From Chryseobacterium vaccae (GTDB taxonomy: Bacteria; Bacteroidota; Bacteroidia; Flavobacteriales; Weeksellaceae): a stretch of DNA of 64,000 nt. Location: assembly GCF_009602705.1 (NCBI RefSeq), contig NZ_VSWH01000001.1, positions 620,001 through 684,000 of the forward strand, given 5' to 3'. Below the pieces are notes generated by a model. The model did not search any database. It had not been told where the DNA came from and saw only the letters and a program-made list of their open reading frames with translations. How positions within the stretch are numbered: position 1 is the first letter of the stretch; every line of letters starts with the position of its first letter. Below, piece by piece: positions 1,063-59,359 of this stretch. The position numbers were made by a program, and so were the translations under genes.

Positions 1063-1071
1063 TTTAATCTT

Positions 1072-1305: not shown

Positions 1306-1310
1306 AAATT

Positions 1311-1350
1311 CCCGGTGGCTGAATTTTTCAGAATCACCGGGGTTTTCTGT
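1311..1350 (+). terminator. Intrinsic terminator of the aldolase/redoxin operon
   Basis: CCCGGTG (1311-1317) pairs perfectly with CACCGGG (1335-1341) around a 17-nt loop, followed by a T-rich stretch. It begins five bases after the stop codon of the CxxC protein. Confidence 0.8.
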
Positions 1351-1391
1351 TCTTTTACAAAAGGCAGCCTGAGTTTTCGGCTGTTTTTTCT

Positions 1392-1898
1392 TTATACAGT
1401 GGCATTGCCTTCAACACCGTCTGAATTATTCGTTTTAATTCCAGTTATTGCAGAAGCTACAAAACTGAACAGGCTGACCAGTTTTCCTGCTTTTGTATCC
1501 CAATAATACGTTTCTTCAGGCTCTACACGAATGATGGTAACATCCGGATCATTTTTACCGTCAAACCATGCTTTGGCCATCGGAGACCATTTCTCATCAA
1601 TCGTTGCTTTATCTTTATAAACAGAAGCTTGTCCATATACAGAAAGATATTGAGAGACACTATTGTTCATGAAAAAAAGCTGTACCCTCCGGTCTTCTTT
1701 TATTTCAAAATTCTTGTTGCTTACGGCACTACTGATAAACCATAGGTTCCCGCTGTCATCTGTTTCCTGAAGAGTCATAGGCCGTGAATTGACCGGTACG
1801 GTTTCCAGTTCTGTACAGAACATGCATATTCTTGCTTTTTCTGACAGTTCTTTGATCTTTTTAATGGCTTCGAGGTGGGTTAAATTCTGTGTTGACAT
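1392..1898 (-). CDS. Pyridoxamine 5'-phosphate oxidase-like (general stress) flavoprotein
   Basis: A 168-residue protein of the split-barrel FMN-binding PPOX family, general stress protein 26 type. Family features are the N-terminal helix, the core RPMTLQETDDSGNLWFISS (about 38-56), the strand RRVQLFFMN (about 70-78) and the C-terminal WDTKAGKLVSL. Relatives bind flavin or F420 and have mostly undefined reductase roles. It is monocistronic and converges on the upstream operon. The last 20 or so residues are rich in small and polar residues and lie outside the fold. Confidence 0.82.
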   Translation of the reverse strand: MSTQNLTHLEAIKKIKELSEKARICMFCTELETVPVNSRPMTLQETDDSGNLWFISSAVSNKNFEIKEDRRVQLFFMNNSVSQYLSVYGQASVYKDKATIDEKWSPMAKAWFDGKNDPDVTIIRVEPEETYYWDTKAGKLVSLFSFVASAITGIKTNNSDGVEGNATV

Positions 1899-2042
1899 AT
1901 TATTATATTTTAAAGTTTGGTATTACTGGAAAATAAAAATAAGTGGATTTCTGAAACTGAATTTCAGTAATATTCACTATTAAATATTCAAATACCTGAC
2001 CAAACAGAATGATTATTGCAAGGAATATCCTGAGTTTATGTA

Positions 2043-2402
2043 TTATTGATCTGAAATCATTTTCTGAAGATCACTCCATGCACCGCCATTGTATACATAT
2101 TTAAAGCCTTTTTCCTTTAAAATATGCTCAGCTTTTACGCTCCGTAATCCATGAGAACAGACTGTGATGTAGGTTTTATTCTGGTGAAGTTCAGTATATC
2201 TTTCGCGGATGCTTCCTAAAGAAATATTAACAGATCCTTCAATATGCCCTGTTTTATATTCTTGTTCCGTTCTTACATCCAGAATAATGGCTCCTTTTTT
2301 AATATGGGTTTCAAGATTGTTACCTAATGTCTGGTATTTGTAAACCCGGTAAATAATATACACTGTAAGAGCTATTCCGCAGAGGATTAAGGCATTTTTC
2401 AT
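2043..2402 (-). CDS. Membrane-anchored rhodanese-domain protein
   Basis: A 119-residue protein with one N-terminal transmembrane helix (residues 1-20) and a single rhodanese domain. The active-site loop CSHGLR carries the catalytic cysteine in the CxxxxR form typical of sulfurtransferases, and the domain starts with AIILDVRTEQEY. It probably handles persulfide sulfur at the membrane. Its start overlaps the stop of the DUF3817 gene by 4 bp, so it is the last gene of a three-gene operon with a TetR-type operator at its promoter. Confidence 0.85.
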   Translation of the reverse strand: MKNALILCGIALTVYIIYRVYKYQTLGNNLETHIKKGAIILDVRTEQEYKTGHIEGSVNISLGSIRERYTELHQNKTYITVCSHGLRSVKAEHILKEKGFKYVYNGGAWSDLQKMISDQ

Positions 2403-2701
2403 AGTCTGCTTAAAATTTTACGGTCAATATAAAAGGTGCCAAAAGGAATAAAGCACGCCAGGATTACTTTCCAGGTCGTTTCTTTAAATTTCCATTGCTG
2501 TTCAACCCCTACACTTAAGGTATTAAACAGGAAAAGAAGAAATAATGTTCCATGAACCGGACCCATTAGTTTTACAAGTCCCGGGTTTCCCAACCCATAT
2601 TTCAATGGTACCGCAATGAATACCAGAATGAGCAGGGAGATTCCTTCCAGAATGGCCAGAATCCTGAGACGGCCGGCTTTTGTTTTTAATAAATTCATCA
2701 T
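2399..2701 (-). CDS. DUF3817 integral membrane protein
   Basis: A 100-residue protein with about three hydrophobic helices. It matches the DUF3817 pattern: an early LRILAILEGISLLIL helix, the conserved PLKYG, then GPVHGTLFLLFLF. The biochemical role is unknown; relatives are small inner-membrane proteins. It sits between a larger membrane protein (2 bp away) and the rhodanese gene (4-bp overlap), which points to co-translation in one unit. Confidence 0.8.
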   Translation of the reverse strand: MMNLLKTKAGRLRILAILEGISLLILVFIAVPLKYGLGNPGLVKLMGPVHGTLFLLFLFNTLSVGVEQQWKFKETTWKVILACFIPFGTFYIDRKILSRL

Positions 2702-2703
2702 AA

Positions 2704-3162
2704 TTATCTAAAATAAGGTCTGTTGGCAAGAGGGGAGAATGGCCATGGGATAGCCATAAAAATAAGTACTAACGCAATGAAATACCAAATAAGCATTGTT
2801 CTGAATTTTTCCCGGTCTGTTTCTTTTCTCTTAGCCAAAGCAGAACCTATGGTGATCAGCACAACTGAAGTAATCATTAGTAAAATATGAATCAGCCCGA
2901 AGAAAAGCAGGTCCAGAGAGGCTTTAGATTCACTGAAGTTCTTCCAGAAATATTTTACGATTGGACTCCTGGAATAAAGGACAATTCCCAAAACCAGCTG
3001 AATATGGGCAATGGTTGCTGTCCAGTGCCGTACCGAATCTTCCTTTTTTCCAAATGTTTTTTGATAAAAATATCCTCTGAAGGCTATCCATATGCTGTAA
3101 ATAAGGCTTAATAAAACGATCCACCGGAACAGGGAATGAAGAAATGTAAGCGTCTGGTACAT
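2704..3162 (-). CDS. Conserved four-helix membrane protein
   Basis: A 152-residue protein with four predicted transmembrane helices (about residues 10-30, 48-66, 83-106, 122-142) and histidines near helix ends (H9, H46, H53, H92). Such proteins in Bacteroidota are often labelled cytochrome b-like, but no haem ligand pair can be proven here. It is the first gene of the operon with DUF3817 and rhodanese proteins. The start at 3162 lies about 15 nt after the predicted transcription start. Confidence 0.6.
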   Translation of the reverse strand: MYQTLTFLHSLFRWIVLLSLIYSIWIAFRGYFYQKTFGKKEDSVRHWTATIAHIQLVLGIVLYSRSPIVKYFWKNFSESKASLDLLFFGLIHILLMITSVVLITIGSALAKRKETDREKFRTMLIWYFIALVLIFMAIPWPFSPLANRPYFR

Positions 3163-3182
3163 GATTAATTTTTAGAACACTT

Positions 3183-3220
3183 CAAAGATAGAATAAAAAC
3201 ATACTAATTAGTATGTTTTT
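3183..3220 (-). promoter_or_regulatory. Promoter with 26-bp perfect palindromic operator (TetR type)
   Basis: On the minus strand TATCTTTG (complement of 3183-3190) fits the Bacteroidota -7 element TAnnTTTG. Directly upstream lies a perfect 26-bp palindrome at 3195-3220 centred on CATACTAATTAGTATG. It covers the spacer and -33 region, the position expected for a repressor. The TetR gene ends 10 bp further upstream, so its product is the obvious candidate ligand. Confidence 0.7.
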
Positions 3221-3230
3221 TGGTAAAAAA

Positions 3231-3821
3231 TTATTCCAAAGATTTGAAATAAGATTTAAGTCCTTTTAAATAAATGAGATACACGGATTTTGAGTTTTCC
3301 AGTTTCCCTAAATTCCGCACTCCCCAATAGCCGGACATTACAAAAACGGCAATTTCTTTTGCGTTGACATTCTCTTTTAACGAGTTATTTTTCTTTCCGT
3401 TTTCAATACACGAAATAATGGCATCCTCCCATTGTACAGAAAGTTTATTCAGAGCCTTGGTAAAATCTACATGCCATGGAGCCATTTCCTGCGTGAAATT
3501 GGAAGCCGGGCAGCCGTATGCAACCTTTAACAAATCATTTTCCATTAAAACGTTATACAGCAGGTTGTAAATACTTTCTAAAGGCTGATCGCTGTTTTGC
3601 AGAGGTTCAATGAAGATGCTTTTGAAATTATTGATCAGAAGTTCATTAATGATGGCCAGACCCATTTCATCTTTTGTTTTAAAATGATAATAGAAAGCCC
3701 CTTTTGTTACCTGGGTGGTTGCAATGATTTCATCGATGCTTGTGGTCTGATAACCTTTCACATAAATCAGTTCAAAGGCTTTCTGAAGAATATTTAAACG
3801 GGTTGCTTCTGATTTTTTCAT
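3231..3821 (-). CDS. TetR/AcrR family transcriptional regulator
   Basis: A 196-residue TetR-family repressor. The N-terminal HTH is clear: AFELIYVKGYQTTSIDEIIATTQVTKG, then FYYHFKTKDEMG (about residues 15-54). The C-terminal half is a ligand-binding helical domain of the YcdC/AcrR type. It is transcribed divergently from an MFS exporter (3970) and lies directly upstream, on the same strand, of the rhodanese/membrane operon. The only palindrome seen is at that operon's promoter, not in the 148 bp before the MFS gene, so the nearest target is the downstream operon. Confidence 0.9.
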   Translation of the reverse strand: MKKSEATRLNILQKAFELIYVKGYQTTSIDEIIATTQVTKGAFYYHFKTKDEMGLAIINELLINNFKSIFIEPLQNSDQPLESIYNLLYNVLMENDLLKVAYGCPASNFTQEMAPWHVDFTKALNKLSVQWEDAIISCIENGKKNNSLKENVNAKEIAVFVMSGYWGVRNLGKLENSKSVYLIYLKGLKSYFKSLE

Positions 3822-3969
3822 AGGGAGGCACTGTCTTTACTGCAAAGAAACGGAATTTCTAAAAACTTAACTATCATTATTCTGATAATAAACTACAATT
3901 TAAATAATTTTTATAATATAATTTTTCGTCAGAACTTTGTCTGGTCAAAATCAATAAAATCTGAATACG

Positions 3970-5184
3970 ATGAATAATCAGAAAGAAATACAGATTCAGG
4001 CACAGGGAGTGAAAAGCAAAGGCCTTCCTGCTGCATTATGGGCACTTACAATAAGTGCATTCGGAATAGGAACCACCGAGTTTGTCATTGTAGGGCTTCT
4101 TCCTACAGTAGCATCAGACCTTGGCATCAGCATTCCTTCAGCGGGACTTTTAGTAAGTCTTTACGCAATAGGGGTTGCCATAGGAGCACCTATACTGACA
4201 GCCCTAACCGGGAAAGTTCCGCGAAAGATTCTTCTAATTTCGATTATGCTGTTATTTGTTATTGGTAATGGATTGGCTTCAGTAGCTCCGGGATTTTTTA
4301 CACTGGTTTTGGCCAGAATTCTGACCGGATTTGCCCATGGAGTTTACTTTTCTATAGGCTCCACAATTGCCGCGTCGTTAGTCACTGAAGAAAGACGGGC
4401 AACGGCTATTTCAATTATGTTTTCAGGGCTTACCCTGGCGATCGTGACAGGAGTTCCACTGGGAACTTTTATCGGGCAGCATTTCGGGTGGAGAGCCACT
4501 TTTATCGGCGTTTCCATTCTGGGAATCATAGGACTGATCGCAAGTATGCTGTTGGTTCCGAAAAACCTTAAAAGCGATCAGACAGCCTCTTTAAAAAGCC
4601 TGCCCAAAGTATTGGGAAACAGACGTCTGATCTTTGCATTTTTAATGACAGCCATGGGATACGGAGGAACATTTGTTGTGTTTACCTACTTATCACCGAT
4701 TTTACAGCAGATCACAGGATTTCAGGAATCCACCGTAACATTCATCCTTCTGGTATATGGAATTGCGATTGCCCTGGGAAATCTTTTCGGAGGAAAAATG
4801 GCCAATAAAAAACCGTTAAAAGCTCTTTTATGGATGTTTGCAGCACAAGGTCTGGTATTACTGGCATTTTATTTTACAGCTGCCAGTCCGGTACTGAGTA
4901 TTATCACGCTCTTTCTTTTAGGAGGCTTATCTTTTGCCACCGTGCCCGGATTGCAGCTCTTGGTAGTACAAATCGCAGAAAAAGAAGTTTCCGGTACAGA
5001 AGATGTGGCATCAGGAATCAATATTGCAGCATTTAATATCGGGATTGCGATAGGATCTTATACTGGTGGGCTTATTGTAAACTCTTCTTTAGGATTGAAC
5101 AGTACACCCTGGATCGGAGCGGTATTTCTATTAGCAACAGTATTAATCACATGGTACAGCATCCATTTGAGCAAAAAGAAATAA
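3970..5184 (+). CDS. MFS transporter, DHA1 (AraJ-like) family
   Basis: A 404-residue 12-helix major facilitator. N-terminal features of the drug:H+ antiporter-1 group are visible: GIGTTEFVIVGLLPTVA in helix 1, the loop-2/3 motif around GKVPRKILL, and GVPLGTFIGQHFGWRATF in helix 5 (motif C type). It most resembles AraJ/YdhP-like exporters of sugars, purines or drugs; the substrate is unknown. The divergent TetR gene makes inducible expression plausible, but no operator was found between them. Confidence 0.85.
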   Translation: MNNQKEIQIQAQGVKSKGLPAALWALTISAFGIGTTEFVIVGLLPTVASDLGISIPSAGLLVSLYAIGVAIGAPILTALTGKVPRKILLISIMLLFVIGNGLASVAPGFFTLVLARILTGFAHGVYFSIGSTIAASLVTEERRATAISIMFSGLTLAIVTGVPLGTFIGQHFGWRATFIGVSILGIIGLIASMLLVPKNLKSDQTASLKSLPKVLGNRRLIFAFLMTAMGYGGTFVVFTYLSPILQQITGFQESTVTFILLVYGIAIALGNLFGGKMANKKPLKALLWMFAAQGLVLLAFYFTAASPVLSIITLFLLGGLSFATVPGLQLLVVQIAEKEVSGTEDVASGINIAAFNIGIAIGSYTGGLIVNSSLGLNSTPWIGAVFLLATVLITWYSIHLSKKK

Positions 5185-5464
5185 GAAAGGGAGAAGGAAG
5201 AGATTATTTATTATTTTTTTCTCTCGCTGATTTTGCAGATAACGCAGATCTTAAAATAACGGTATGTATATGAATAAAGTTATAGGTGATTGACAATTCT
5301 CGTTATACTGCCTTGCTTTTAGTTGACTCAAATGTAATATTGTTTAAAGCCTGAATATTCAAAAAATCTGCAAGAAATTTTTTAATTTTAATATTTTCCC
5401 TCATATTAAAGAGTCTCTAAGCTTTTTTTCAGAACAAAATAATTTCCAACCTCTCTCTTCCACC

Positions 5465-6109
5465 TTAGATTTCATGAATTTCAGAATCTGTAAATACAAA
5501 AAACTTTCCGCTTTTGGGAATATTTTTGGTATCAAGTCCTGTAAATTCACTGAAGGCAGGTAGAAGAAGCTGTCCGGAAGTCTGTACAAAACAAGGAAGT
5601 CTGAAGCTTTTCACTGAAGAATTCAGGATAACGCCCGGATGAATATGCCCGGTGATCTGAAATCCGGAGCGTGTTTTATCAAAATCATGAATGAAGATAA
5701 AATCGTCGATCTGCAGAAGTTCAGCCCTGAAATTCAGGCATAATTTACGTTCCAGGGCTTCTGTAATCCGATCGTGGTTACCTTCGATAAGATAAAATAA
5801 GAGATCAGGATACTGATTTCTCCATCGGCAAAACTCATCCACGTCAGAATTATCTCCGGCATGGAGCAAATCACCAACAATAATGAATTTATCAGGGTTA
5901 AAATAGGCTATGAGAGCAGATAATCTTTCCAGATCGCTTTTCATAATATGATTGGCCAGAGCAATCCCGTTTTTCCGGAAATGAGCTGTTTTCCCGATAT
6001 GAAGGTCAGACAGGATTAATGCTTTCTCTCTTTTCCAGAATGCGGCGCGCTGATTGGTTAACGTGAAAACTTCGTTGCTGATCGTGATATTTTTTACGGC
6101 AATATTCAA
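5465..6109 (-). CDS. pdeM: Ligase-associated DNA-damage-response endonuclease PdeM
   Basis: A 214-residue calcineurin-type metallophosphoesterase. All metal-site motifs are present in order: LSDLHIGK (about residue 33), VGDLLHAG (about 77), EGNHD (about 108), and the C-terminal GHIHPG (about 153). PdeM-type enzymes act on DNA and occur with the bacterial Lhr-like helicase, ATP-dependent ligase and MBL exonuclease, exactly the three genes that lie upstream here on the same strand. The gap to the helicase gene is 107 bp, so it may be distal in the operon or have its own promoter. Confidence 0.88.
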   Translation of the reverse strand: MNIAVKNITISNEVFTLTNQRAAFWKREKALILSDLHIGKTAHFRKNGIALANHIMKSDLERLSALIAYFNPDKFIIVGDLLHAGDNSDVDEFCRWRNQYPDLLFYLIEGNHDRITEALERKLCLNFRAELLQIDDFIFIHDFDKTRSGFQITGHIHPGVILNSSVKSFRLPCFVQTSGQLLLPAFSEFTGLDTKNIPKSGKFFVFTDSEIHEI

Positions 6110-49613: not shown

Positions 49614-49718
49614 ATCATTCAAAAAAATAAGCGAAGAGGAGTAAGAGCTGTAAGAAAACGATAGGGTATATTTTACTTTAAAACAATGGTTTTCAGGTAT
49701 TTTCATTCAATCTCATGC

Positions 49719-49787
49719 CATTTTGTAAAAATATAACTACGAATTGTAAATTCTGACTGATTTCTTACTTTACAATCATTATTTTTA
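49719..49787 (+). promoter_or_regulatory. LytTR-type direct repeats, site A, and promoter
   Basis: TTGTAAA boxes at 49723-49729 and 49744-49750 are 21 bp apart; the second is in CGAATTGTAAA. A -7-like TATTTTTA starts at 49780, 36 bp after the second box, the same distance as at sites B and C. An inverted copy TTTACAA lies at 49769-49775. It precedes the LytTR regulator gene, implying autoregulation. Confidence 0.65.
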
Positions 49788-49807
49788 CCGTGCTAAAAAA
49801 TGTAAAA

Positions 49808-50548
49808 ATGATAAGCATTGCGATCATAGAAGATGAGCCGGCAGTACGTAAAGAAATAAGTTTCCTGATTCAGCAGGAAGCCGATACGGAACTTATCGGA
49901 TGGAGTGACAGTGTACAAACCGCTGTACAACTGATTCAGGAAAAGCAGCCCGATGTCATCCTTATGGATATTCAGCTTCGGGACGGGACGGCTTTTGACC
50001 TTCTGAAATTACTTAATCCAATCCCTCAGAATATTATATTTATTACAGCCTATAACCATTTTGCGATCAAAGCTATAAAATATGGAGCGCTGGATTATCT
50101 TCTGAAACCTGTTGATCAGAGTGAACTGAGAGAGAGTTTGGGAAGGTACCGCCGGAGAAGTGAAAACAACCCACAGTGGATGCAGCAGTTAATGTTGACC
50201 CAAGAGTCTATGACAGCTTCAGATCTTCCTGAAAGCATTGCCCTTAATACCGTTCACAGTACTCATATTATTAAAGTTCAGGATATTGTTTATTGTAAAG
50301 GGGATGGACCTTATACTTTTTTCTTTCTGAATAATGGAACTAAAGAACTGATCTCCAAACCGCTTAAATATTACGAAGAATTATTACCCGCACCGCATTT
50401 TCTGCGCACTCATCAGTCCTATCTGGTCAACCGTCAGTATATATCAGGGCTTAACCGTTCAGAATATATTGTTCTTAAAAATAAGGAAGAGATTCCTATT
50501 TCCCTGAGACGCAAAAATGCTATATTAACTCAGCTTTTGAATAAATAA
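49808..50548 (+). CDS. LytTR family response regulator
   Basis: A 246-residue regulator: receiver domain with acidic pocket EDE (near residues 8-10) and phosphoacceptor aspartate in VILMDIQLRDG, the KPVDQSEL lysine, then a LytTR DNA-binding domain (about 140-246; HIIKVQDIVYCKGDGPYTFFFL, LRTHQSYLVNRQYI). ATG 49808 is chosen; the upstream GTG at 49790 would lie at the predicted transcription start. The partner kinase gene follows immediately. LytTR proteins bind paired direct repeats two helical turns apart, as found at three promoters here. Confidence 0.9.
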   Translation: MISIAIIEDEPAVRKEISFLIQQEADTELIGWSDSVQTAVQLIQEKQPDVILMDIQLRDGTAFDLLKLLNPIPQNIIFITAYNHFAIKAIKYGALDYLLKPVDQSELRESLGRYRRRSENNPQWMQQLMLTQESMTASDLPESIALNTVHSTHIIKVQDIVYCKGDGPYTFFFLNNGTKELISKPLKYYEELLPAPHFLRTHQSYLVNRQYISGLNRSEYIVLKNKEEIPISLRRKNAILTQLLNK

Positions 50549-52465
50549 ATGAAACATATACTTCGGATCATCTACTTTGGAACAGCAGTTTTGCTGGCTT
50601 CAGGATGTAGTAAAAAACAGACTTCTGCTACGAAGGAGAATGCTCTCCTAAAACAGATCAATACATTAGAAAATGCACCTGTAAATCCTAAAAATGCGGA
50701 TTCTATGGTCGTTGTCTGGCGTAAATATGAAAAAAATCCATTGGTGATAAAAGACACTACGATGTCTGCAATTGTTAAATATCAAATGGCCCGTATGTAT
50801 GGGATGCGCGGTCAGGATTCTGCCCGTTATTATATAGAACAGGCTCTGGAGCTTATAGAACCAACTTCAGGCAATCTTTTGTATAAGACATTGATATACA
50901 ATGGAATTGGAAACATTCGGAGCATGGAGGCCAAACAACGGGAAGCAGGCTATTATTACAATAAGGCTGCAGCTATTGTTTCAGATACTGCTGTACATCT
51001 TTCTGATGAAGCGCGTTCAGCAATTCTTCTTTCAGCTGCACAAAGCAATCTGAATGCTTATCAGTACAATCTTGCTGAAAAAATGAACCGGGCTGCTCTG
51101 CCCTGGACTGTTCCCCTGCCTGAGGGGCATATCAATAAACAACGGGTACTGGTACAGATGATATTCACTCTTAGTACCCTCAATAAGCCTGCAGACAGTA
51201 TAAAACCCTATCTCCATAAGCTGGAAGTTCTTCATGCACGAAATCCTGATCAATATGACATAGGTTATCTATATGATGCCAAAATGAAATATTTTGATTC
51301 CCAGGACCAGCGGGACTCCCTGCTTCATTATCAGCTCCTGAAAGCAAAGAATGACGAAAGTATAAACAATAAACAAACAGCTGCAGTTGAGATCAATAAT
51401 CTTTTTGTTGATTACACTGATATTGCAGGAACTTATGTCGTACTTAAACAAGTGGAGAAAGCTCAGGAATTTATTCAAAAAACTGAAGCCCTGAAGAAAA
51501 GTCATCCCAAGCTGATCTATAGCTACAACGAGGCCACATATCTGAACAACCTTGCCGGTTTATACCAATTAAAGGGAAAGCCTAATGAAGCTATTGAGCT
51601 TATGAAACAGGCCGCAAAACTTCAAAAAGAAGTATACGAAACGGAAAATACCCAGGCCGTTGCAGAAATGAATGCTCTTTATCAGCTTCAGGCTAAAGAC
51701 CGTTCCATCCGGACTTTGAATGAAAACATCAAGATTAACCAGTTGGAGCTGGAACAGAACCACTTATGGCTTGTTATCTCTGTCCTGGGATCTGTTCTTT
51801 TGGGGATTGTACTATTGTTTTTATATTATAGTTTCCGCCAGCGCCGTACAAGACAGGAAAAAGAAAAGTTGTTGCTTCAGCAGCAATTACTCCGGACACA
51901 GATGGAACCTCATTTTATCTTTAATACATTATCTGCGGTACAGAGCTTTGTGAGATTGGATAAAAAGGAAAGTGCTATTAAATATCTTAACCGTTTCAGC
52001 CGTCTTCTCCGAAGCAGTCTCGAGCTGAGCAGGGAAAATCTGGTTCCATTGAATGAAGAGATTGAAACACTGGAAAACTATCTCTGTCTTCAGCAGATGC
52101 GCTATGAAAATGCTTTTACCTATCACATCTCCCAGCCGGATGAACAGGATTTAGGAGCGGCATTACTTCCTCCGATGCTGATACAGCCTTATGTGGAAAA
52201 TGCAATCCTGCACGGCATTAATCTGGATTCTCATACCGGAAATATTGAGGTATGTTTTAAACTGGATGACGATGTTTTACAGGTTACCGTTACCGATACC
52301 GGACGAAGCCAGGCACATCAGGCAGATACTTCACACCGTTCATTATCCGGAACAATCAGCAGGGAAAGAATGCAGCTGCTAGGCAAAAAAGCAAGTGTAA
52401 ATATTTCCAAAAATGCAGGCAGTGGCACTGTGGTAACCCTATTAATCCCAGTGGTAAACCCTTAG
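50549..52465 (+). CDS. TPR-containing sensor histidine kinase (LytS/YehU type)
   Basis: A 638-residue membrane kinase. A lipoprotein-type signal (LLASGC, C20) precedes TPR-like helical repeats (about 40-370), a coiled linker, one membrane helix (about 405-428) and a His_kinase domain. The phosphoacceptor histidine is in MEPHFIFNTLSAVQSF, the N-box in PPMLIQPYVENAILHG, and TDTG marks the ATP lid. It is contiguous with the response regulator gene. The periplasmic TPRs may sense a peptide or envelope signal. Confidence 0.9.
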   Translation: MKHILRIIYFGTAVLLASGCSKKQTSATKENALLKQINTLENAPVNPKNADSMVVVWRKYEKNPLVIKDTTMSAIVKYQMARMYGMRGQDSARYYIEQALELIEPTSGNLLYKTLIYNGIGNIRSMEAKQREAGYYYNKAAAIVSDTAVHLSDEARSAILLSAAQSNLNAYQYNLAEKMNRAALPWTVPLPEGHINKQRVLVQMIFTLSTLNKPADSIKPYLHKLEVLHARNPDQYDIGYLYDAKMKYFDSQDQRDSLLHYQLLKAKNDESINNKQTAAVEINNLFVDYTDIAGTYVVLKQVEKAQEFIQKTEALKKSHPKLIYSYNEATYLNNLAGLYQLKGKPNEAIELMKQAAKLQKEVYETENTQAVAEMNALYQLQAKDRSIRTLNENIKINQLELEQNHLWLVISVLGSVLLGIVLLFLYYSFRQRRTRQEKEKLLLQQQLLRTQMEPHFIFNTLSAVQSFVRLDKKESAIKYLNRFSRLLRSSLELSRENLVPLNEEIETLENYLCLQQMRYENAFTYHISQPDEQDLGAALLPPMLIQPYVENAILHGINLDSHTGNIEVCFKLDDDVLQVTVTDTGRSQAHQADTSHRSLSGTISRERMQLLGKKASVNISKNAGSGTVVTLLIPVVNP

Positions 52466-52489
52466 TTTCAAAGAATGTAATTCAGGTCT

Positions 52490-52562
52490 GTTCCTCATCA
52501 ATACTTTTTTCCCGGAAATGTAAAATTCCGGAAATAACGATAAAGAAGTATTGATGAGGAAC
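52490..52562. repeat. 73-bp element with nested inverted repeats
   Basis: GTTCCTCATCAATACTT (52490-52506) is the exact reverse complement of 52546-52562, and the stem extends four more pairs. Inside, CCGGAA (52512-52517) pairs with TTCCGG (52526-52531). No T-run follows on either strand, so it is not an ordinary terminator. It resembles a small REP/MITE-like element or a structured RNA segment downstream of the kinase gene. Confidence 0.6.
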
Positions 52563-52732
52563 AAATGATCTGATTAAGATAAAATTACAGTCAATCACAA
52601 AATATATTTTTATTCTTTTACTGTGGCGAATCTTCCGCGGCAGGGGAAAGCCAATAAAACCCCTCATTATTCCAATATTTCAGCAAGTCATTACTTTGGT
52701 AGAATAAACTCAATAAATGCTTTATATTATCA

Positions 52733-53431
52733 TTGAAAAAGAACTTTAAACATATCGTTAATCGGATCTTTGAATCGCTGGCAGCTGTTATCATGGCAGC
52801 AATGATTCTGGCCTTTATATTTATAGTCAACAGTTATCATTATTTTATTTATGCGCTAATTATTTCTGCTCTTGTTTTTATATTGAGAAAGACTCAAAGG
52901 AAAGTCTGGAAGAAGAAAGGAGAATATTTTTTGATGCTGCTTGGATTTATTTATGTTTTTATGCTGATTCTTTTTTCTGTCTCTCCGTTTTTGAGATTTA
53001 AAGAATTTCAGGTAACTCATTTACGTTGGAATACGGCAGAATCTAAAGTAGTATTTTATCAGTCAGGCTGGGATAAACCTTACAGAAAATCCAGTGGGTA
53101 TGCTTATTCAGATATTACCTACACCTATAAAATAGGACAGCGTAGTTTCACCCGTACAGAACATAAGGCAGAAAAATTATATTACCCGGTATGGGAAAGC
53201 AAAAACCGGATTCATAAACTGAAATCTGAAATTCTGCAAAGAACAGAACAGCAGATAGCTGAAAGGAAATTTATTCTTTTGTATAATCCCGGCAACCTTT
53301 CAGAAAGTAAATTATTTATTTCTACACAGCCTTTATATCTGCAAGGTTCAGGTTTGTATGCATTCGCTGTTATGATTGGGATAATTCTGCTTTTAGCCAC
53401 TTTTTGTATAATTTTCACCCAGAAAAAATGA
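52733..53431 (+). CDS. DUF3592-like membrane protein (TTG start)
   Basis: A 232-residue protein with helices at about 13-32, 37-50, 64-85 and 205-227. The region between the third and fourth helix (SDITYTYKIGQRSFTRTEHK, then FILLYNPGNLSESKLF) has the pattern of DUF3592 proteins. It starts with TTG at 52733 (MKKNFKHIV); no nearby ATG keeps the first helix. It lies between the kinase and the LytTR site B. Function unknown. Confidence 0.55.
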   Translation: MKKNFKHIVNRIFESLAAVIMAAMILAFIFIVNSYHYFIYALIISALVFILRKTQRKVWKKKGEYFLMLLGFIYVFMLILFSVSPFLRFKEFQVTHLRWNTAESKVVFYQSGWDKPYRKSSGYAYSDITYTYKIGQRSFTRTEHKAEKLYYPVWESKNRIHKLKSEILQRTEQQIAERKFILLYNPGNLSESKLFISTQPLYLQGSGLYAFAVMIGIILLLATFCIIFTQKK

Positions 53432-53481
53432 CATTCATGATATTACCTATTATTTTAAATCATATATAGGTGAAAAATGTA

Positions 53482-53551
53482 GCGAATTGTAAACCACTTC
53501 CGGCGAATTGTAAACGAATCTTTTACTTCAGAAATATACTTTCTACCTTTG
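53482..53551 (+). promoter_or_regulatory. LytTR-type direct repeats, site B, and promoter
   Basis: GCGAATTGTAAAC occurs exactly twice, at 53482-53494 and 53503-53515, 21 bp apart. TACCTTTG (53544-53551) fits the -7 consensus and begins 36 bp after the second TTGTAAA box. The -33 region has no TTTG, which fits an activator-dependent promoter. It precedes the membrane-protein cluster. Confidence 0.78.
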
Positions 53552-53598
53552 AACTCAACAGCCAGACCAAGCAAAAGAGTATAAAATGTGCTGCACAA

Positions 53599-54264
53599 AT
53601 GACGAATACAAACTATATAAGCCATTTTATAAGACAGCTTCGCTTAAGAAAAAGAATCCTGATTCTTTTGCTGGTTTTGGCGGTTTTTATAATACCCTTT
53701 ATATTTCTTGTTGTAGCCTATAAAGAAACCAATGACCTGGGAAAAGATCTGTTAGGAAAAACAAGATATAATGAAAGGATAGAAGATGCTGTAAAATATA
53801 CTTTAGCAATGATGGGGCTTCTTACTGTAATGATAGTACCGCTGGCTTTTCTGCTCAACAGGTTTTTTGAAAGCTATGTTCCGGTGCTGAAATCATTGGA
53901 AGATGATGATATTAAGAAACTGAAAAAGTACAACGAAAGCCAGGCTCTGATACATAAATATCATGTTTCATTTATTTTCCAGAAAGATACACTGCATATT
54001 TTCAAACTGGGAAGGGTAAACAGCATCAAAGGAAACAGTATTATCAGTTATAATCTTGAAAAGACATACGGCCGGGGAGGTCATTACCGTCTCAGGATAA
54101 AGACTGCTGACAAAGATTATTTTTATATAATCAATAATAACGACAGACAGGCACTGATGCTGGAACAGGATCTGGCCGTCATTATGAACCAGACAAACAA
54201 CTATAAAGAATCCGGAATACATTTTCTCCAGAAGAATTTAATACCCTCCGGAAAAAAGATATAG
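53599..54264 (+). CDS. Uncharacterised membrane protein, first gene after LytTR site B
   Basis: A 221-residue protein with two membrane helices (about 20-42 and 70-90) and a cytoplasmic C-terminal domain (about 110-215; ALIHKYHVSFIFQKDTLHIF). The frame is open from 53470, but that part encodes the two LytTR boxes (as repeated ANCK) and the promoter, so ATG 53599 (MTNTNYISH) is used. I do not recognise a family. Being directly behind the LytTR-type promoter suggests it is a target of the upstream kinase/regulator pair. Confidence 0.6.
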   Translation: MTNTNYISHFIRQLRLRKRILILLLVLAVFIIPFIFLVVAYKETNDLGKDLLGKTRYNERIEDAVKYTLAMMGLLTVMIVPLAFLLNRFFESYVPVLKSLEDDDIKKLKKYNESQALIHKYHVSFIFQKDTLHIFKLGRVNSIKGNSIISYNLEKTYGRGGHYRLRIKTADKDYFYIINNNDRQALMLEQDLAVIMNQTNNYKESGIHFLQKNLIPSGKKI

Positions 54265-54309
54265 AAACATATTATTCAGGGAAAATAATAACCGATCAGA
54301 GAGACGACG

Positions 54310-55128
54310 ATGGAAAAAAAACTTGCTTGTATACGTATTGTCAAGCATTATTTCGGAAAAAAAAATGCCACTGTTTCTCTGATCTTTGTTTCTATTCTTT
54401 CTCTTACAGGAATAGTCTCTGTTTTTGCCAACTGGAAAAGCGGACTTTGTGCAGCAGGTGTTGTAGCATTCATTTATTTCTTTCAAAAAATATTCGGATA
54501 CAAGTATCTTTTACTGGGTATTGCTTCTATACTGGCTGCAATATATTGGCTAGGGCAGGTATTGAACGTAGAGTTTGTATTTTTTGCTCTTACATTAGTA
54601 TTTCTTCCTTTTATTTTCTTTATAAAACCGTGTTATGACGAATATAAAAAGTCATCTTATTTTGAGGTTTTTTATTTGGATAAAAGAAAGATCAAATGCA
54701 TGGTAACAATGGAGAACTCCGATTATAAAGGGTATATGCTTGATCCGAAAAGCTATGTGAAAGAATTTCCTTCAGCAAAGATCAAAGCCTTTTCTTTTGC
54801 TGAAAAAAGCATGATGATTGCGGTAGGTGACCTTTTGATCCGGCCGAAAGAGCTTTCTCATGAAGATCTTTATCTCATTCAGGAGTATGTATATCAATAT
54901 TTTCCTGACCTTTTACAGAATGAGGAGGTAATCCGCGAAAATAGCGGAAAAGAAAACCTGTTTTATCTCCACAAACTCATGATCTTTTCTCCTATACTTA
55001 TTTTGGGAATTGGTATTTATTTTTTAGCAGATAACGGAAAAGACCAGCTGTTAACCTGTATTTTTCTAATATTAATGGTGGTTTTACCTGTAATAATCTA
55101 TAGTATTTTAAGAAAATTTAAAAAGTAA
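54310..55128 (+). CDS. Uncharacterised multi-helix membrane protein
   Basis: A 272-residue protein with two blocks of hydrophobic helices (about 18-110, four helices; 220-265, two helices) around a soluble segment that carries YFEVFYLDKRKIKCMV and a weak PH-like strand pattern. No known motif. It follows the previous gene by 45 bp on the same strand and is probably in the same transcript. Confidence 0.55.
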   Translation: MEKKLACIRIVKHYFGKKNATVSLIFVSILSLTGIVSVFANWKSGLCAAGVVAFIYFFQKIFGYKYLLLGIASILAAIYWLGQVLNVEFVFFALTLVFLPFIFFIKPCYDEYKKSSYFEVFYLDKRKIKCMVTMENSDYKGYMLDPKSYVKEFPSAKIKAFSFAEKSMMIAVGDLLIRPKELSHEDLYLIQEYVYQYFPDLLQNEEVIRENSGKENLFYLHKLMIFSPILILGIGIYFLADNGKDQLLTCIFLILMVVLPVIIYSILRKFKK

Positions 55129-55157
55129 CGGTTACTATATGTACATTTGAATAACCT

Positions 55158-55502
55158 ATGAAAATCATTAAACATCTTCTGATAAGACTGCTGATCACCG
55201 CTGTTCCTCTGATCGGGCTGTATTTCTGGGCAGAAATGGCATTCAAAGCAAACAAACAAAAAGAACATCCTACCGATGTAGGAATGGGAGTTGCGTTGAT
55301 GCTGATCTTTATATTAAGTGCTTTATTCTTTGGATTTATAACAGATTTGATTATAAGGCTGATAAAAAAAGATTACAAAGCAGCACTTACAGATATTCCG
55401 TTTCTTCTGGCTTTTATTGTCCCGATTCTTTACTTAAGCTGTTTATGGTCGGGTGGAGACGGTTTTTGTGAATGGCTAACCAATACTATTAACAAAATAT
55501 GA
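55158..55502 (+). CDS. Small membrane protein
   Basis: A 114-residue protein with three hydrophobic helices (about 7-26, 42-65, 80-98). No family recognised. Its end overlaps the next gene by 4 bp, pointing to coupled translation. Belongs to the membrane-protein run behind LytTR site B. Confidence 0.55.
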   Translation: MKIIKHLLIRLLITAVPLIGLYFWAEMAFKANKQKEHPTDVGMGVALMLIFILSALFFGFITDLIIRLIKKDYKAALTDIPFLLAFIVPILYLSCLWSGGDGFCEWLTNTINKI

Positions 55503-55828
55503 TATTAATTGCGGCAATAGTAATTTGTATAGTAATAGGTGGGCTTACTTACTTTAAACGTTCACCTAAAGCAATACTCATCACCATACTCCTGCTGTTG
55601 GGGGCAATGATCTGCTTTTTTTATTGGGCAGCTTCCAAAGAGAAAAAATATGGGATCTGCATTCCTGCTTATTTTAACAATGAAAAAAAAGACAGCCTTG
55701 TAATGTCTGATGGCGGAGAAAAACCTTCTGATGCAGAACGCGTTGTCCAGTGGAAAACAAAAGTATCTGTACAATCAGAAAGTTATGACTGGATACAAAA
55801 AGAAGAGACCTGGCAGATGTCACTGTGA
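55499..55828 (+). CDS. Small membrane-anchored protein
   Basis: A 109-residue protein: two N-terminal helices (about 1-17 and 25-43) and a short charged C-terminal domain of about 60 residues. No recognised motif. It overlaps the preceding gene by 4 bp. Confidence 0.5.
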   Translation: MILIAAIVICIVIGGLTYFKRSPKAILITILLLLGAMICFFYWAASKEKKYGICIPAYFNNEKKDSLVMSDGGEKPSDAERVVQWKTKVSVQSESYDWIQKEETWQMSL

Positions 55829-55941
55829 ATGTGAATACCCGTTTTGTGTTTTTTCAGTTCATCTGGTCTGTTTGAGATGCTCAGATGAAGAAGGAGAACC
55901 AGTTCTTTCATAACGACTATTATAAAACCCGTTCAGGAAAA

Positions 55942-56370
55942 ATGAAAAAAATAGTATTGTTTGCCATAATTACCGCAGGAATATTCATTTCGAAGGCACA
56001 AACATTGACGCCATCCGGCATCTGGTATGATGTAATTCCGGCAAAGATGAATACAGATAGTCTTTTAACAAAAAAAGGATTTACATTGAAATATGGAGGT
56101 CCTAAAAAGCAGGGCGGAACTTTATATTGTTATGTCAACAAAAAAGCGGATGAATGGCTGTTTATCCATACCGATAAGAAGGAAGCCACCAGCCAGGTAT
56201 CTTATCTGCTGCCTTCGTTAAAGAAATACCGGAAAAATCTGACCAGTAAAAAGCTGTTACTGCCAGGAGAAGAAGTAAGCGGAATGGGAAAAACTTTTCA
56301 GGAAAACAAAATATACTATCATCTTATCTATACTTTTCAAAAACCAGAAATACCTATTACAAGAGAATAA
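55942..56370 (+). CDS. Secreted hypothetical protein
   Basis: A 142-residue protein with a signal peptide (MKKIVLFAIITAGIFISKAQ) and a compact mature part with regular strands (LKYGGPKKQGGTLYCYVNKK). The frame can be extended to 55885, but the signal peptide starts at 55942. No known family. The next gene starts 3 bp downstream. Confidence 0.6.
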   Translation: MKKIVLFAIITAGIFISKAQTLTPSGIWYDVIPAKMNTDSLLTKKGFTLKYGGPKKQGGTLYCYVNKKADEWLFIHTDKKEATSQVSYLLPSLKKYRKNLTSKKLLLPGEEVSGMGKTFQENKIYYHLIYTFQKPEIPITRE

Positions 56371-56373
56371 AAC

Positions 56374-57168
56374 ATGAAAATATTTAAATTGATATTGATT
56401 TTTGTTATGGTGGCCTTTGTACTTCTGTGCACAGGCACTTATTTCTATCCTGTACAATATGACAGCAATTGTCGTGACGGAAATATATACCGGTACAAAG
56501 CGGGAATTTACCAAATGACTACAGGAGTTTCTGGCAAAAAAGAATATAAAAAAATAGGCGGATTATCTATGTTTTTTGGAATTAAACCTATCATCTGTCC
56601 TGAAGAAATTGAAAAACAGCATTTTGAAGCAGTTGTAAAATCCATTGATAGCACCAATCAGATTTTAGACTGGAAACTTCAGAATAACGGACTGTGGATC
56701 AGTAAAAAAGGGGATTGGGCTATAAAGGAAATTATAGCGATAGGGCCGGAAGGAATGAAGCAGGCTGATCATTATATTAGTCAGATGGGATTTAATGATA
56801 ATGAACCTCTGAAGGAGATCATTGATTCTGCTACTTTTCAAAAATTAAATACCAGCTTTTATAAAGATAAAAATCATGTTTACAGGTACTATGGAATGGT
56901 TTATGGAGGAAGTTTTTCTATTTTTCCGGAAGCGGATCCTGCTACATTTGAAGTATTAAACGAATGCTATGCGAAGGACAAAAGCCACATTTATGAATCA
57001 CGCCAGGGAATACTGGACAATGTAGATTATAAAACGTTTAGAACTAAAAATACCCTGACAGGTTGTTTCGCAAAAGACCACAACGGATATTTGCAATGGG
57101 GAGACCGGATCTCTGAAGAAAATATGAAGGAGGAATATGTACAGAAAGCCATTAAAGAATTGAAATAA
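56374..57168 (+). CDS. DKNYY-family protein, membrane-anchored
   Basis: A 264-residue protein with an N-terminal membrane helix (about 3-24) and C-terminal repeats of the DKNYY type: FYKDKNHVYRYYG, then DPATFEVLNECYAKDKSHIYES, then CFAKDHNGYLQWG (about 165-250). DKNYY repeats occur in surface proteins of Bacteroidota; their ligand is unknown. Part of the run behind LytTR site B. Confidence 0.7.
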   Translation: MKIFKLILIFVMVAFVLLCTGTYFYPVQYDSNCRDGNIYRYKAGIYQMTTGVSGKKEYKKIGGLSMFFGIKPIICPEEIEKQHFEAVVKSIDSTNQILDWKLQNNGLWISKKGDWAIKEIIAIGPEGMKQADHYISQMGFNDNEPLKEIIDSATFQKLNTSFYKDKNHVYRYYGMVYGGSFSIFPEADPATFEVLNECYAKDKSHIYESRQGILDNVDYKTFRTKNTLTGCFAKDHNGYLQWGDRISEENMKEEYVQKAIKELK

Positions 57169-57191
57169 TTTATTCCTGCAATTTCTAAGTC

Positions 57192-58067
57192 ATGAAAAGA
57201 ACACTATTTTCAGTTTTATTGTTTACGTTCAGCCAGATGAATGCCCAGACTGTTTATACAGGATCTATCGGCGATTATCCCATTGAAATGGTTATTTATG
57301 CAGGAGATGCTGTTTATTCTTATACTGATTTTGATGAACCGATTTCGCTGAATAATGGAACGATCAGCAATGGGAAACTTACTTTTTATGAAAAAGAAAC
57401 AACCGGGAAAAAGCAGACCAGAGCAATTCTTACATTGGATCGTTTTTCTGAAGGGCAAAATACATTATCAGGGATCTGGAAAAATATCAAAACAAAAAAT
57501 GAGCTGAAAATTAATTTAACGAAAAAATATGCTATTGAAAACGGTGAAAATATTCAGTGGAAAGGCAGAGAATTGTTACAGCCCGTTTCGGCAGGTAATA
57601 CCTATTTCAAAGTGGTTGCTACCAAAGAAAAGGACCATTATTATCCCATGATTACATCCGTAAAGATATTTGAAAAGCGCACAGACAAGCTGCTGCAGGA
57701 GCTTGATGTTAGCTGTCAGCTCTGGGGATTAAATAATATAAGCATTGATGATTTTAACTTTGACGGGATTGATGATTTTTCTGTCTTTGAATCCAGTTAT
57801 GCAGGCCCCAATACCTCCAGTATTTACTTTCTGTATAACAAAAAAACTCAGAAATATTACGAAAGCAGCTTCAGTGGAATTTCTTTGGAGTTTGATCCCG
57901 TTAAGAAAAGAGTTTATGAAAGAAATCAATGCTGTGCCGGAACTGTAGTCACAACGGTTGAGTATAAAGTTGCCAATAATAGTTTAATTCCGCTTGCTCA
58001 ACACTGCTACCGCTGGAATGATAAAAAACAGAAGCTTGTGGAAAAGCCAATGAAAGAATGTCAGTAA
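57192..58067 (+). CDS. Secreted XAC2610-like protein
   Basis: A 291-residue protein with a signal peptide (cleavage after QMNAQ). Its C-terminal half contains an FG-GAP-like calcium motif IDDFNFDGIDDFSVFES and the SYAGPNTSSIYFLYN continuation typical of XAC2610-related proteins. The N-terminal half is a beta-rich domain (GSIGDYPIEMVIY). Two adjacent cysteines (QCCAG) stand near the end. Last gene of the secreted/membrane group. Confidence 0.68.
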   Translation: MKRTLFSVLLFTFSQMNAQTVYTGSIGDYPIEMVIYAGDAVYSYTDFDEPISLNNGTISNGKLTFYEKETTGKKQTRAILTLDRFSEGQNTLSGIWKNIKTKNELKINLTKKYAIENGENIQWKGRELLQPVSAGNTYFKVVATKEKDHYYPMITSVKIFEKRTDKLLQELDVSCQLWGLNNISIDDFNFDGIDDFSVFESSYAGPNTSSIYFLYNKKTQKYYESSFSGISLEFDPVKKRVYERNQCCAGTVVTTVEYKVANNSLIPLAQHCYRWNDKKQKLVEKPMKECQ

Positions 58068-58493
58068 TTATTTTTCAATGAAAACGATTGAAAATCATCG
58101 GAATTTAATTCTTTTTTAATCATCAAAAGGCATACCCGGTCCAGCCCAGACTCATTCAGTACATAACAGAATAACTTAATCACTGAAAGTAGAATATAGT
58201 AAGAAAAAATAATAAGATTCACTTCTTAAGGAATTTTGAGGGACCTTTTATCCATTCATATAAGGCTTTTTTTGCGAATTGTAAACGGCATCAAGCGGAT
58301 TGTAAATGAAAGAGGGAAGGGATGAAAATATTATCTACTTTTGAAATAAGAAACAACAGAAGTTCATCAGGAACCGGAATTATTTCTCGGTAGCCGTTTA
58401 ATGAAACACCTGTTTTTGACTGGTTTAAAAAACCAATGATTAAGTTCTTTGAAATAAATATAAAACGGAAAAAACAAAAAATACTATTGCCCT
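58068..58493. other. Gap holding LytTR site C and a long leader
   Basis: No gene of credible length. It contains the paired LytTR boxes and -7 element described separately. From a start near 58350, the leader of the next gene would be about 145 nt. A 12-codon frame (58401-58439) lies in it but has no further support. Confidence 0.5.
58272..58343 (+). promoter_or_regulatory. LytTR-type direct repeats, site C, and promoter
   Basis: GCGAATTGTAAAC (58274-58286) and GCGGATTGTAAAT (58295-58307) are 21 bp apart. TACTTTTG at 58336-58343 is the -7 element, starting 36 bp after the second TTGTAAA (58300), identical to site B. It controls the small membrane protein and peptide array downstream. Confidence 0.78.
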
Positions 58494-58784
58494 ATGAAGG
58501 CCATTGAAGTTTTACGGAACATTCTGATTGTATTTTGGATTTTGTTGCTGGCAGTGAATGTTCTGCTGGTACTTCCAGAATACTGTGCATGCAGAAATAT
58601 TTCTGAAAACGGAAAAGGAAAAACCATCTGGGGATATACAATAGACTGTATTGGGGATAATGAAGAATTTTCTTTGATTTTCTTTCAATGGATTGGCTGT
58701 TGGCTGATCGGAATAATGACCATAATCATTATACTGCATATAATTTATAAAAGGAAGAAAGGACATCTGAAGTTGGAAGAATAA
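58494..58784 (+). CDS. Small membrane protein ahead of the peptide array
   Basis: A 96-residue protein with two hydrophobic helices (about 7-27 and 58-85) around a short cysteine-containing loop (YCACRN, IDCIGDN) and a basic tail. No family recognised. It is the first gene after LytTR site C, and the first short peptide frame starts 5 bp after its stop. It could be an exporter accessory or immunity-type protein; that is speculation from position. Confidence 0.5.
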   Translation: MKAIEVLRNILIVFWILLLAVNVLLVLPEYCACRNISENGKGKTIWGYTIDCIGDNEEFSLIFFQWIGCWLIGIMTIIIILHIIYKRKKGHLKLEE

Positions 58785-58789
58785 TAACC

Positions 58790-58906
58790 ATGAAAACTTT
58801 TAGTTTTAAACAGAGCAATAAAGAAAGCGGTACTGTCAATTGCCGCAGTAAACCTGATGTAACAGGCGTGCCGCTTTTTACTTCCCGAAACCCTGATACA
58901 TTATAA
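58790..58906 (+). CDS. Short peptide ORF 1 of tandem array
   Basis: A 38-residue frame starting in the context ATAACCATGAAAACT. N-terminus MKTFSFKQSNKESG, C-terminal part VPLFTSRNP. The start context and both peptide motifs recur in three further frames downstream. A perfect 7-bp hairpin (58824-58830 with 58871-58877) followed by TTTT lies inside the frame. It may be a real peptide or an RNA element with a start codon. Confidence 0.4.
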   Translation: MKTFSFKQSNKESGTVNCRSKPDVTGVPLFTSRNPDTL

Positions 58907-58925
58907 AAAATTAAAAACTATAACC

Positions 58926-59027
58926 ATGAAAACTCATCATTAACAGCCCAATAAAAAAGCTGTTCTGAGTGAATTACCATTTATAAAAAAGAAGAAAGGA
59001 ATAGACAAGCCTAAAGAATTAGTAACC
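58926..59027 (+). pseudogene. Short peptide ORF 2 of tandem array, frameshifted
   Basis: Starts with the same ATAACCATGAAAACT context but reads MKTHH and stops. In another frame the sequence continues as QPNKKAVLSELPFIKKKKG, matching the NKK and LPF parts of the sister peptides, so it looks like a copy broken by a small deletion. A hairpin AACAGC/GCTGTT lies at 58942-58964. Confidence 0.35.
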
Positions 59028-59132
59028 ATGACAACTTTTGTTTTAAACAGCACAAAAACTGCTCTGCCTTTTTACAACAGGACACCTGTTCGTAATTTCC
59101 TGCTGTTTTTCTTCTATTTTTATAACTGTTGA
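59028..59132 (+). CDS. Short peptide ORF 3 of tandem array
   Basis: A 34-residue frame after GTAACCATGACAACT: MTTFVLNSTKTALPFYNRTP, then a hydrophobic end (FLLFFFYFYNC). LPFYNRTP corresponds to PLFTSRNP of ORF 1. A terminator-like hairpin follows at about 59150-59190. Confidence 0.35.
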   Translation: MTTFVLNSTKTALPFYNRTPVRNFLLFFFYFYNC

Positions 59133-59266
59133 CGGTAGGGCAGAAAAAACAAACAGCATCGGTACAAAGGGGAAATGCCGGTGTTGTTTTTACTACAGTT
59201 AATCTGTTTACAGTATTATATTGTAAACAATAGATAAAGGAAGTGTAGAGTTAAAAACTAATAACC

Positions 59267-59359
59267 ATGAAAACTCTAAATTTTAAACAAATTCATAAAA
59301 AGAGCAGCATGGCGCTGAATGTAATATGCTGCTTTTACTTCCTTCTATACTCCCTTTAA
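59267..59359 (+). CDS. Short peptide ORF 4 of tandem array
   Basis: A 30-residue frame after ACTAATAACCATGAAAACT: MKTLNFKQIHKKSSMALN, then a hydrophobic end (CCFYFLLYSL). MKTxxFKQ and the KKS segment match ORF 1. Upstream lies an inverted pair TGTTTACA (59205-59212) and TGTAAACA (59222-59229). The hairpin AGCAGCAT/ATGCTGCT sits inside the frame. Confidence 0.35.
   Translation: MKTLNFKQIHKKSSMALNVICCFYFLLYSL
59303..59338 (+). terminator. Terminator-like hairpin within peptide ORF 4
   Basis: AGCAGCAT (59303-59310) pairs perfectly with ATGCTGCT (59326-59333), followed by TTTACTT. Its T-run shares GCTTTT(T)ACTTCC with the hairpin in ORF 1. Confidence 0.6.

Follow-up and report, generated by a model that had tools for sequence, protein, structure and literature searches.

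A paired operator probably links a LytTR-type regulator and its adjoining kinase to envelope-protein genes in Chryseobacterium vaccae and its relatives

Introduction

LytTR regulators that stand beside PF06580 kinases form the BtsSR, YpdAB and LytSR type of two-component system. Here we describe a locus akin to these systems in Chryseobacterium vaccae, within a 64,000-nucleotide stretch of contig NZ_VSWH01000001.1 (positions 620,001 to 684,000; hereafter the window, whose own coordinates we use) that holds a lytTR regulator gene, a sensor kinase gene and three promoters, A, B and C, each preceded by a pair of similar DNA boxes. Direct repeats are described for YpdB (PMC4847170) and for the LytTR regulatory systems (LRS), which include the Streptococcus mutans pairs HdrRM and BrsRM and in which the repeats lie just upstream of the promoter and go with autoregulation (PMC6193735). 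The LRS repeats are 9 bp long with 12-bp gaps and those of look-alike systems in Bacteroides 11 bp with 11-bp gaps, a period of 21-22 bp (PMC6193735). The initial annotation of this DNA, made by a model from the sequence alone, had stated that LytTR proteins use direct repeats two turns apart. LytTR proteins are already known both for autoregulation and for repeats of this period immediately upstream of promoters.

The system in the window shares with the BtsSR, YpdAB and LytSR type a regulator made of a receiver and a LytTR domain, an adjoining PF06580 sensor and two boxes on the same strand. It differs in its kinase, which carries TPR repeats and a lipobox-like N-terminus, and in its box, GCGRATTGTAAA, which is unlike the YpdB box GGCATTTCAT (PMC4847170). 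An LRS combines a LytTR protein with an inhibitory membrane protein; here we find a receiver domain and a PF06580 kinase, so the pairing is not that of an LRS. Among the open PMC papers listed in our literature searches we recognised no earlier description of the operator or the regulon. Within the literature searched, three things are new: the code of the operator, the association of this code with a clade of TPR kinases in Bacteroidota, and the cassettes that carry the operator. We conclude that the kinase and the LytTR regulator very probably control a regulon through paired GCGRATTGTAAA boxes 20-21 bp apart.

Three promoters share one architecture

The TTGTAAA cores start at 49723 and 49744 (site A), 53487 and 53508 (site B) and 58279 and 58300 (site C), 21 bp apart in every pair. 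In each case the -7 element starts 36 bp past the second core (49780, 53544 and 58336), and the three promoters lie within 8.6 kb. The initial annotation had claimed these core pairs with their spacing, and every coordinate proved right to the base; its 36-bp distance holds at A, B and C, and the extended form GCG(A/G)ATTGTAAA, which it had assigned to B and C, is found in both boxes of each. Operator B (53482..53514, plus strand, as are all features of the window named here) is written GCGAATTGTAAA-N9-GCGAATTGTAAA and operator C (58274..58306) GCGAATTGTAAA-N9-GCGGATTGTAAA. In operator A (49718..49750) the proximal box, ACGAATTGTAAA, keeps most of the extended form, and the distal one, CCATTTTGTAAA, does not. 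The -7 elements are TATTTTTA at A (49780..49787), TACCTTTG at B (53544..53551) and TACTTTTG at C (58336..58343), and the fuller operator can be described as two GCGRATTGTAAA boxes at a spacing of 21 or 20 bp. As the -7 consensus TAnnTTTG occupies positions -12 to -5 (PMC9723704), the proximal core would sit at about -48 to -42. A general scan for sigma-70 promoters gave little more than its shuffled background (44, with 38.4 in shuffles), and one for terminators lay only somewhat above it (12, with 6.2).

The exact pair TTGTAAA-N14-TTGTAAA occurs three times in the 5,125,723 bases of the host genome, at A, B and C and nowhere else, so that the regulon appears to be local here, with three promoters; the genome-wide scan suggested with the initial annotation thus did not turn up many unrelated occurrences. 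Allowing one mismatch raises the number of places to 25, the three exact ones included, against 16 for a reversed-pattern control; such pairs are therefore largely background, and we rejected them as operators. The longer pattern CGRATYGTAAA-N10-CGRATYGTAAA, at up to three mismatches, returns four places (control 0), which are A, B, C and 4,459,197. The last was rejected because it has three mismatches and lies inside an open frame, one that by eye resembles the end of another response regulator. Two places found with the long pattern at 20-bp spacing are at chance level (control 1) and were likewise rejected. At up to two mismatches the long pattern is present in one of 395 genomes of the phylum, the host itself, a figure that gauges the chance background only. 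Could A, B and C be a chance pattern? TTGTAAA is AT-rich and its one-mismatch pairs stay near background; against this stand three exact pairs in 8.6 kb with none elsewhere in 5.13 Mb, a motif conserved across orders and the single hit in the phylum, and we rejected chance, whose probability we consider negligible.

The operator follows one clade of regulators

The regulator gene (49808..50548) encodes 246 aa with a receiver domain (PF00072, 71.6 bits) and a LytTR domain (PF04397, 63.5 bits), both above cutoff. Directly behind it, at 50549..52465, lies the gene for a sensor kinase of 638 aa with TPR repeats and a His_kinase domain (PF06580, 74.7 bits, cutoff 25.2); HATPase_c stays below its cutoff (21.7 of 26.4 bits), and the N-terminus shows by eye a lipobox-like cysteine and a membrane helix. 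Both domains, the adjoining kinase and paired same-strand boxes about two helical turns apart are the marks of a LytTR-type response regulator. The closest named regulator is that of C. indologenes, at 97% identity, and the BtsR and LytR equivalog cutoffs are missed (118 of 246 and 100.6 of 375 bits). In a tree of 52 regulator sequences (one frameshifted row omitted) 33 form a clade at 100/100, with a branch length of 1.01, and K164 and P168 are among the residues of the DNA-binding domain that never vary within the clade and seldom occur in its sister group. Counting outgroup loci too, 39 of 40 loci have a long open reading frame (ORF) directly behind lytTR (for this count one locus, L044, was unreadable and another, from genome G039, was cut by the locus end; G and L numbers label genomes and loci, and 65 loci come from named genomes). 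The lipobox-like cysteine is present, by eye, in 39 of 39 readable kinases. In L044 (Niabella defluvii) the regulator frame ends early and the kinase is fragmented, through either decay or sequencing error.

Within the genus the regulator was found in 5 of 173 genomes (E at most 1e-60, the best 15 first-look candidates being scored per genome). The motif with the window's spacing, that is with the -7 element at 36 bp, is present in four of these five and in none of the other 168 (Fisher's p ~1e-7, by hand). When the gap before TAnnTTTG may vary, six of the 173 match, among them G057 and G169, where the gap is different and the regulator was not found. Upstream of lytTR itself the motif occurs at 23 of 34 clade loci and at none of 19 outside the clade, with 0.5% in shuffles that keep base composition only (220 bp, both strands, up to five mismatches). 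We also scanned 44 whole-genome entries with the regulator or a cousin of it (duplicates: G053 = G561, G148 = G562). At up to two mismatches the 21-bp form is present in 31 entries and the 20-bp form in 25, with the reversed control at zero in 42 and in all 44 entries, respectively (exceptions G566 and G567). After a recount, either form occurs in 30 of 32 distinct clade genomes versus 1 of 10 genomes with a distant cousin only. Near the regulator of G566, tandem copies of a 21-bp unit with TTGTAAAC (minus strand of L031, about 5100-5420) mimic the core and inflate naive counts.

Spacing and promoter position are preserved as well. Box pairs in 35 regulator-flanking sequences number 35 at 21 bp and 25 at 20 bp, and every other spacing between 15 and 29 accounts for 1 to 9. 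A 75% identity filter, with the L031 repeat dropped, reduced 139 raw sites to 87 non-redundant ones, of which 61 have the 21-bp and 26 the 20-bp spacing. A -7 match (TAnnTTT) lies 35-37 bp past the second core in 60 of them (16 at 35, 36 at 36 and 8 at 37), and other offsets hold at most two sites each; all 87 were scored by their boxes, although the G059 stretch, which also holds the regulator, had been picked by a search in which the -7 element took part. In only 4 of the 60 does a TTG stand outside the box at 17-21 bp upstream of the -7 element, which fits activator-dependent promoters. Considered as patterns in DNA, the operator, its spacing, its promoter position, its link to one regulator clade and its conserved targets (next section) are well established.

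How might the circuit work? The neighbouring kinase would phosphorylate the regulator, and two regulator protomers would bind one face of the DNA at boxes about two helical turns apart. The proximal box would then stand just upstream of a promoter with a Bacteroidota -7 element and, because the -33 TTG is usually missing, the regulator would probably activate transcription by contacting RNA polymerase. The host regulon would consist of three promoters, driving the regulator-kinase operon and two cassettes of membrane or exported proteins, and the kinase, presumably lipid-anchored, very probably responds to an envelope signal through a TPR region that would lie in the periplasm. The initial annotation went further and saw a self-activating circuit. 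The arrangement at site A, with repeats before the regulator's own operon as in LRS-type autoregulation, makes self-activation plausible there, and 13 of 34 clade loci have a site that faces lytTR, as in the window. The other 10 of the 23 upstream sites face a divergent gene and 11 loci have no site, so self-activation is not a rule.

Those 11 of 34 clade loci that have the regulator and no motif in front of it could also suggest that another transcription factor binds the boxes, the lytTR gene being one target that travels with them. We consider this quite improbable: the motif tracks this LytTR clade within the genus and is absent before the sister clade, and same-strand boxes about two turns apart are a known LytTR arrangement (PMC6193735; a direct repeat for YpdB, PMC4847170). 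The divergent paralogue L051 is, moreover, preceded by its own variant box, GCGAATAATAAA, possibly a case, if a single one, of co-variation between operator and regulator. L051 and L034 are two regulator paralogues of one Sphingobacterium metagenome-assembled genome (G569).

Besides the 11 loci just mentioned, several observations weigh against control of a local regulon by the kinase and regulator. No site at up to two mismatches was found in the Epilithonimonas (L047) and Pararcticibacter (L042) genomes, 27 of the 87 sites have no -7 match at 35-37 bp, and sites in Sphingobacterium are scattered genome-wide, unlike a local regulon. The targets add two further points, as 9 of 24 relatives of island genes lack the motif, and phmmer likeness to the Chryseobacterium island genes is seen in only 8 of 143 Sphingobacteriales/Chitinophagales targets versus 7 of 451 non-targets, a modest signal (p 0.013); four of these seven non-target matches, two each in L053 and L212 (one genome region), were mislabelled, since a site does precede them.

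Genes behind the operators

The regulator-kinase operon and the genes around B and C together form an island, and relatives of two of its genes, returned by protein search, carry the operator too. It lies upstream of five of six relatives of the gene at 53599 (two close Chryseobacterium islands and three of four Sphingobacterium) and of 10 of 18 relatives of the gene at 52733, the five weakest of which are without it. All 24 returned loci, which come from related species, were scored; together 15 have the motif at up to four mismatches, mostly in Sphingobacterium, versus 87 of 3000 random windows, these controls being drawn from regulator loci that contain sites. At three separate places in S. 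detergens, relatives of the genes at 52733, 53599 and 56374 are among the first genes behind sites. More generally, 33 of 39 first genes are predicted to encode membrane or exported proteins, versus 49% of 142 and 55% of 442 background ORFs; the call is a home-made hydropathy rule, the 39 genes come from 40 chosen loci that include many sites of few genomes and single sites of others, and the background ORFs were taken by a stricter rule (ATG, 100 aa). Co-occurrence in the genus, upstream sites in the clade, island-gene relatives and -7 distance thus support the local LytTR-type regulon that the initial annotation had proposed.

In the window the first island gene past the kinase encodes a membrane protein of 232 aa (52733..53431) without a Pfam family above cutoff. 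An operator precedes its homologue in C. indologenes (L026:12662) and has, by eye, been lost from the window at about 52480. The first gene behind B (53599..54264) encodes 221 aa, modelled as long N-terminal helices followed by a pleckstrin-homology (PH)-like domain (pLDDT 80.2); Foldseek matches are mostly PH domains, the best at E 6e-3 and none below 1e-3. Next come a membrane protein without a family (54310..55128), two small membrane proteins without a Pfam family (55158..55502 and, above cutoff, 55499..55828), all three called by eye, and a probably exported protein without a family (55885..56370). In G148 the counterpart of this last gene belongs to a cassette that is preceded by a lipoprotein-like gene and by a separate operator (L190:2179), both of which are missing from the window. 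The last two genes of the cassette encode probably exported proteins with a family. The first, at 56374..57168, is a DKNYY-family protein (PF13644, 45.5 bits, cutoff 25) whose relatives stand directly behind the motif as first gene in two Sphingobacterium genomes; among the immunity-related papers listed, 20 of 408 matches, none mentions DKNYY. The second, at 57192..58067, is a 291-aa protein related to XAC2610 (NCBIfam NF047539, 58.7 bits, cutoff 35), a family that is also found beside lytTR in Niabella. Sequence searches of the PDB with the products of 57192 and 55885 gave nothing useful. The VIA rows ranked below 4qtq were mostly beta-propeller matches and did not include Tsi1 or PliI, an absence that we did not use as evidence.

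The island, of about 10 kb, lies between bioA and a gene of the major facilitator superfamily (MFS) type. In three relatives in which the regulator was not found (G003, G032 and G025), bioA is near the MFS-type gene, and what separates the two is a set of other genes, not the island; the stretch covered in a fourth, G142, does not include the MFS gene. In the tree the window regulator clusters among Sphingobacteriaceae, apart from those of its genus-mates G039 and G059, with some forks open. In G059 the regulator stands at a different place, among eight operators that follow one another in tandem over about 19 kb; this array includes SMI1/KNR4 and ankyrin genes, and two more sites lie at 1.06 Mb. 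The relatives without the island, the placement in G059 and the regulator tree suggest repeated transfer, and to judge from these comparisons the island was probably acquired. Cassette content also differs between close relatives, as C. indologenes and G148 show when set beside the window. Behind the promoter array of G059 (L104, 17820-19922, minus strand) we noted a 700-aa ORF with a peptidase M23 domain, and in G039 (L113, 9716-16705) an ORF of 2329 aa, Rhs/YD-repeat-like by eye, with the regulator about 1.3 kb downstream.

What the regulon may do

Our tentative choice for the role of the regulon, and the likeliest of those considered, is induced envelope protection, carried in part by immunity-like proteins such as the XAC2610 relative. 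The characterised member of that family is an immunity protein against a lysozyme-like toxin. In the window the gene differs from this XAC2610 / X-Tfi immunity family in sitting behind a LytTR-type operator, and by eye, no search having been made, a cognate toxin gene was not recognised beside it. Family assignments count against the protection role: Pfam families above cutoff are found in one of the eight window island genes beside the regulator pair and in 5 of 20 proteins of the G059 region. Profile searches also left many targets without a Pfam or NCBIfam family. With most tested genes outside known families, few genes support the proposed role.

General envelope upkeep or remodelling, such as lipoprotein traffic or the response to cell-wall stress, unrelated to rivals, comes close behind, as a serious possibility. 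The genes behind sites are a mixture of envelope proteins, GLPGLI, SPFH, CHAP and PH-like ones included, and the lipobox-like cysteine common to the readable kinases suits such a task; what speaks for protection instead is that the cassettes differ between close relatives and that some arrays hold immunity-like families, with SMI1/KNR4 and ankyrin represented in G059, and XAC2610 both in the window and next to lytTR in Niabella. A more specific form of the protection role, which we regard as possible though somewhat doubtful, is a mobile, inducible immunity array, in which a lipid-anchored TPR kinase would detect envelope damage inflicted by rivals and switch on interchangeable protection cassettes through one operator. 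New cassettes, carrying the same operator, would join the regulon at once, and the G059 array, the window island and the scattered Sphingobacterium copies would be versions of one system.

Such an array would recall the orphan immunity arrays and acquired interbacterial defence genes of Bacteroidales, with which the cassettes share mixed short genes, some of immunity-type families, that differ between relatives and were probably transferred. The likeness is a family resemblance of a few members, most genes having no assigned function, and most cassettes here, unlike those arrays, share one operator adjoining their own two-component system. Another parallel is the protective regulon of Phocaeicola, in which the antibacterial toxin BcpT induces envelope protection (PMC9308784); its control is of the sigma/anti-sigma kind, and by term count the main text contains neither LytTR nor two-component. 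If the protection role is right, immunity-type genes would be stored as cassettes and come under common damage-inducible control after horizontal transfer. Whatever the role, the analysis provides a precise operator for a Bacteroidota LytTR clade and lists envelope proteins, most of them uncharacterised, that appear to share a single switch.

The ORFs behind site C

The initial annotation had placed B and C before small membrane or secreted genes and a peptide array. Membrane and exported proteins are indeed found, and the array is at least partly a remnant. The first gene behind C (58494..58784) encodes, by eye, a small membrane protein of 96 aa, and it is followed by short ORFs (58790..59359), the supposed peptides. 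The last of them can be aligned to the 5' end of a complete gene for a 171-aa membrane protein in G148 (L190:7053-7568) and is thus a remnant of such a gene, so we rejected the array as a clean set of small genes. As a group the short ORFs match a longer region of G148, in which the remaining ones are short too.

A regulon that drives the production of small peptides or bacteriocins, with membrane proteins for export or self-protection, is unlikely. Bacteriocins are under LytTR control in streptococci (PMC6193735), a site heads a C39 peptide-export ABC operon in one Sphingobacterium genome (L197) and, in another (L203), a small ORF with a GG motif stands behind a site by eye. Set against these cases, the last peptide-like ORF of the window is the remnant just described, a peptide exporter was not found among the ten island proteins tested, and a peptide-exporter ABC model picks out just 1 of the 66 proteins sampled behind sites. 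The L197 operon (S. tabacisoli, G583; 992-5719, minus strand) consists of an HlyD-like gene, a C39-ABC exporter and, by eye, a TolC-like gene.

The 171-aa membrane protein of G148 is weakly like STM3941 (27.4 bits, cutoff 40). Behind C a start region of the type AACCATGAAAACT recurs several times, together with ORFs that are short or eroded (58790-59359 in the window, 6040-8600 in L190), and these repeats look like decayed tandem copies of one membrane-protein gene, one of which is intact in G148. Relatives of this gene are present in Niabella (L044:7338 and L062:6677). Near lytTR in the latter locus (L062:8767), an ORF of 65 aa contains a stretch, LLVLPEYCACRN, that by eye resembles the product of 58494; the ORF is too short for the phmmer comparison above.

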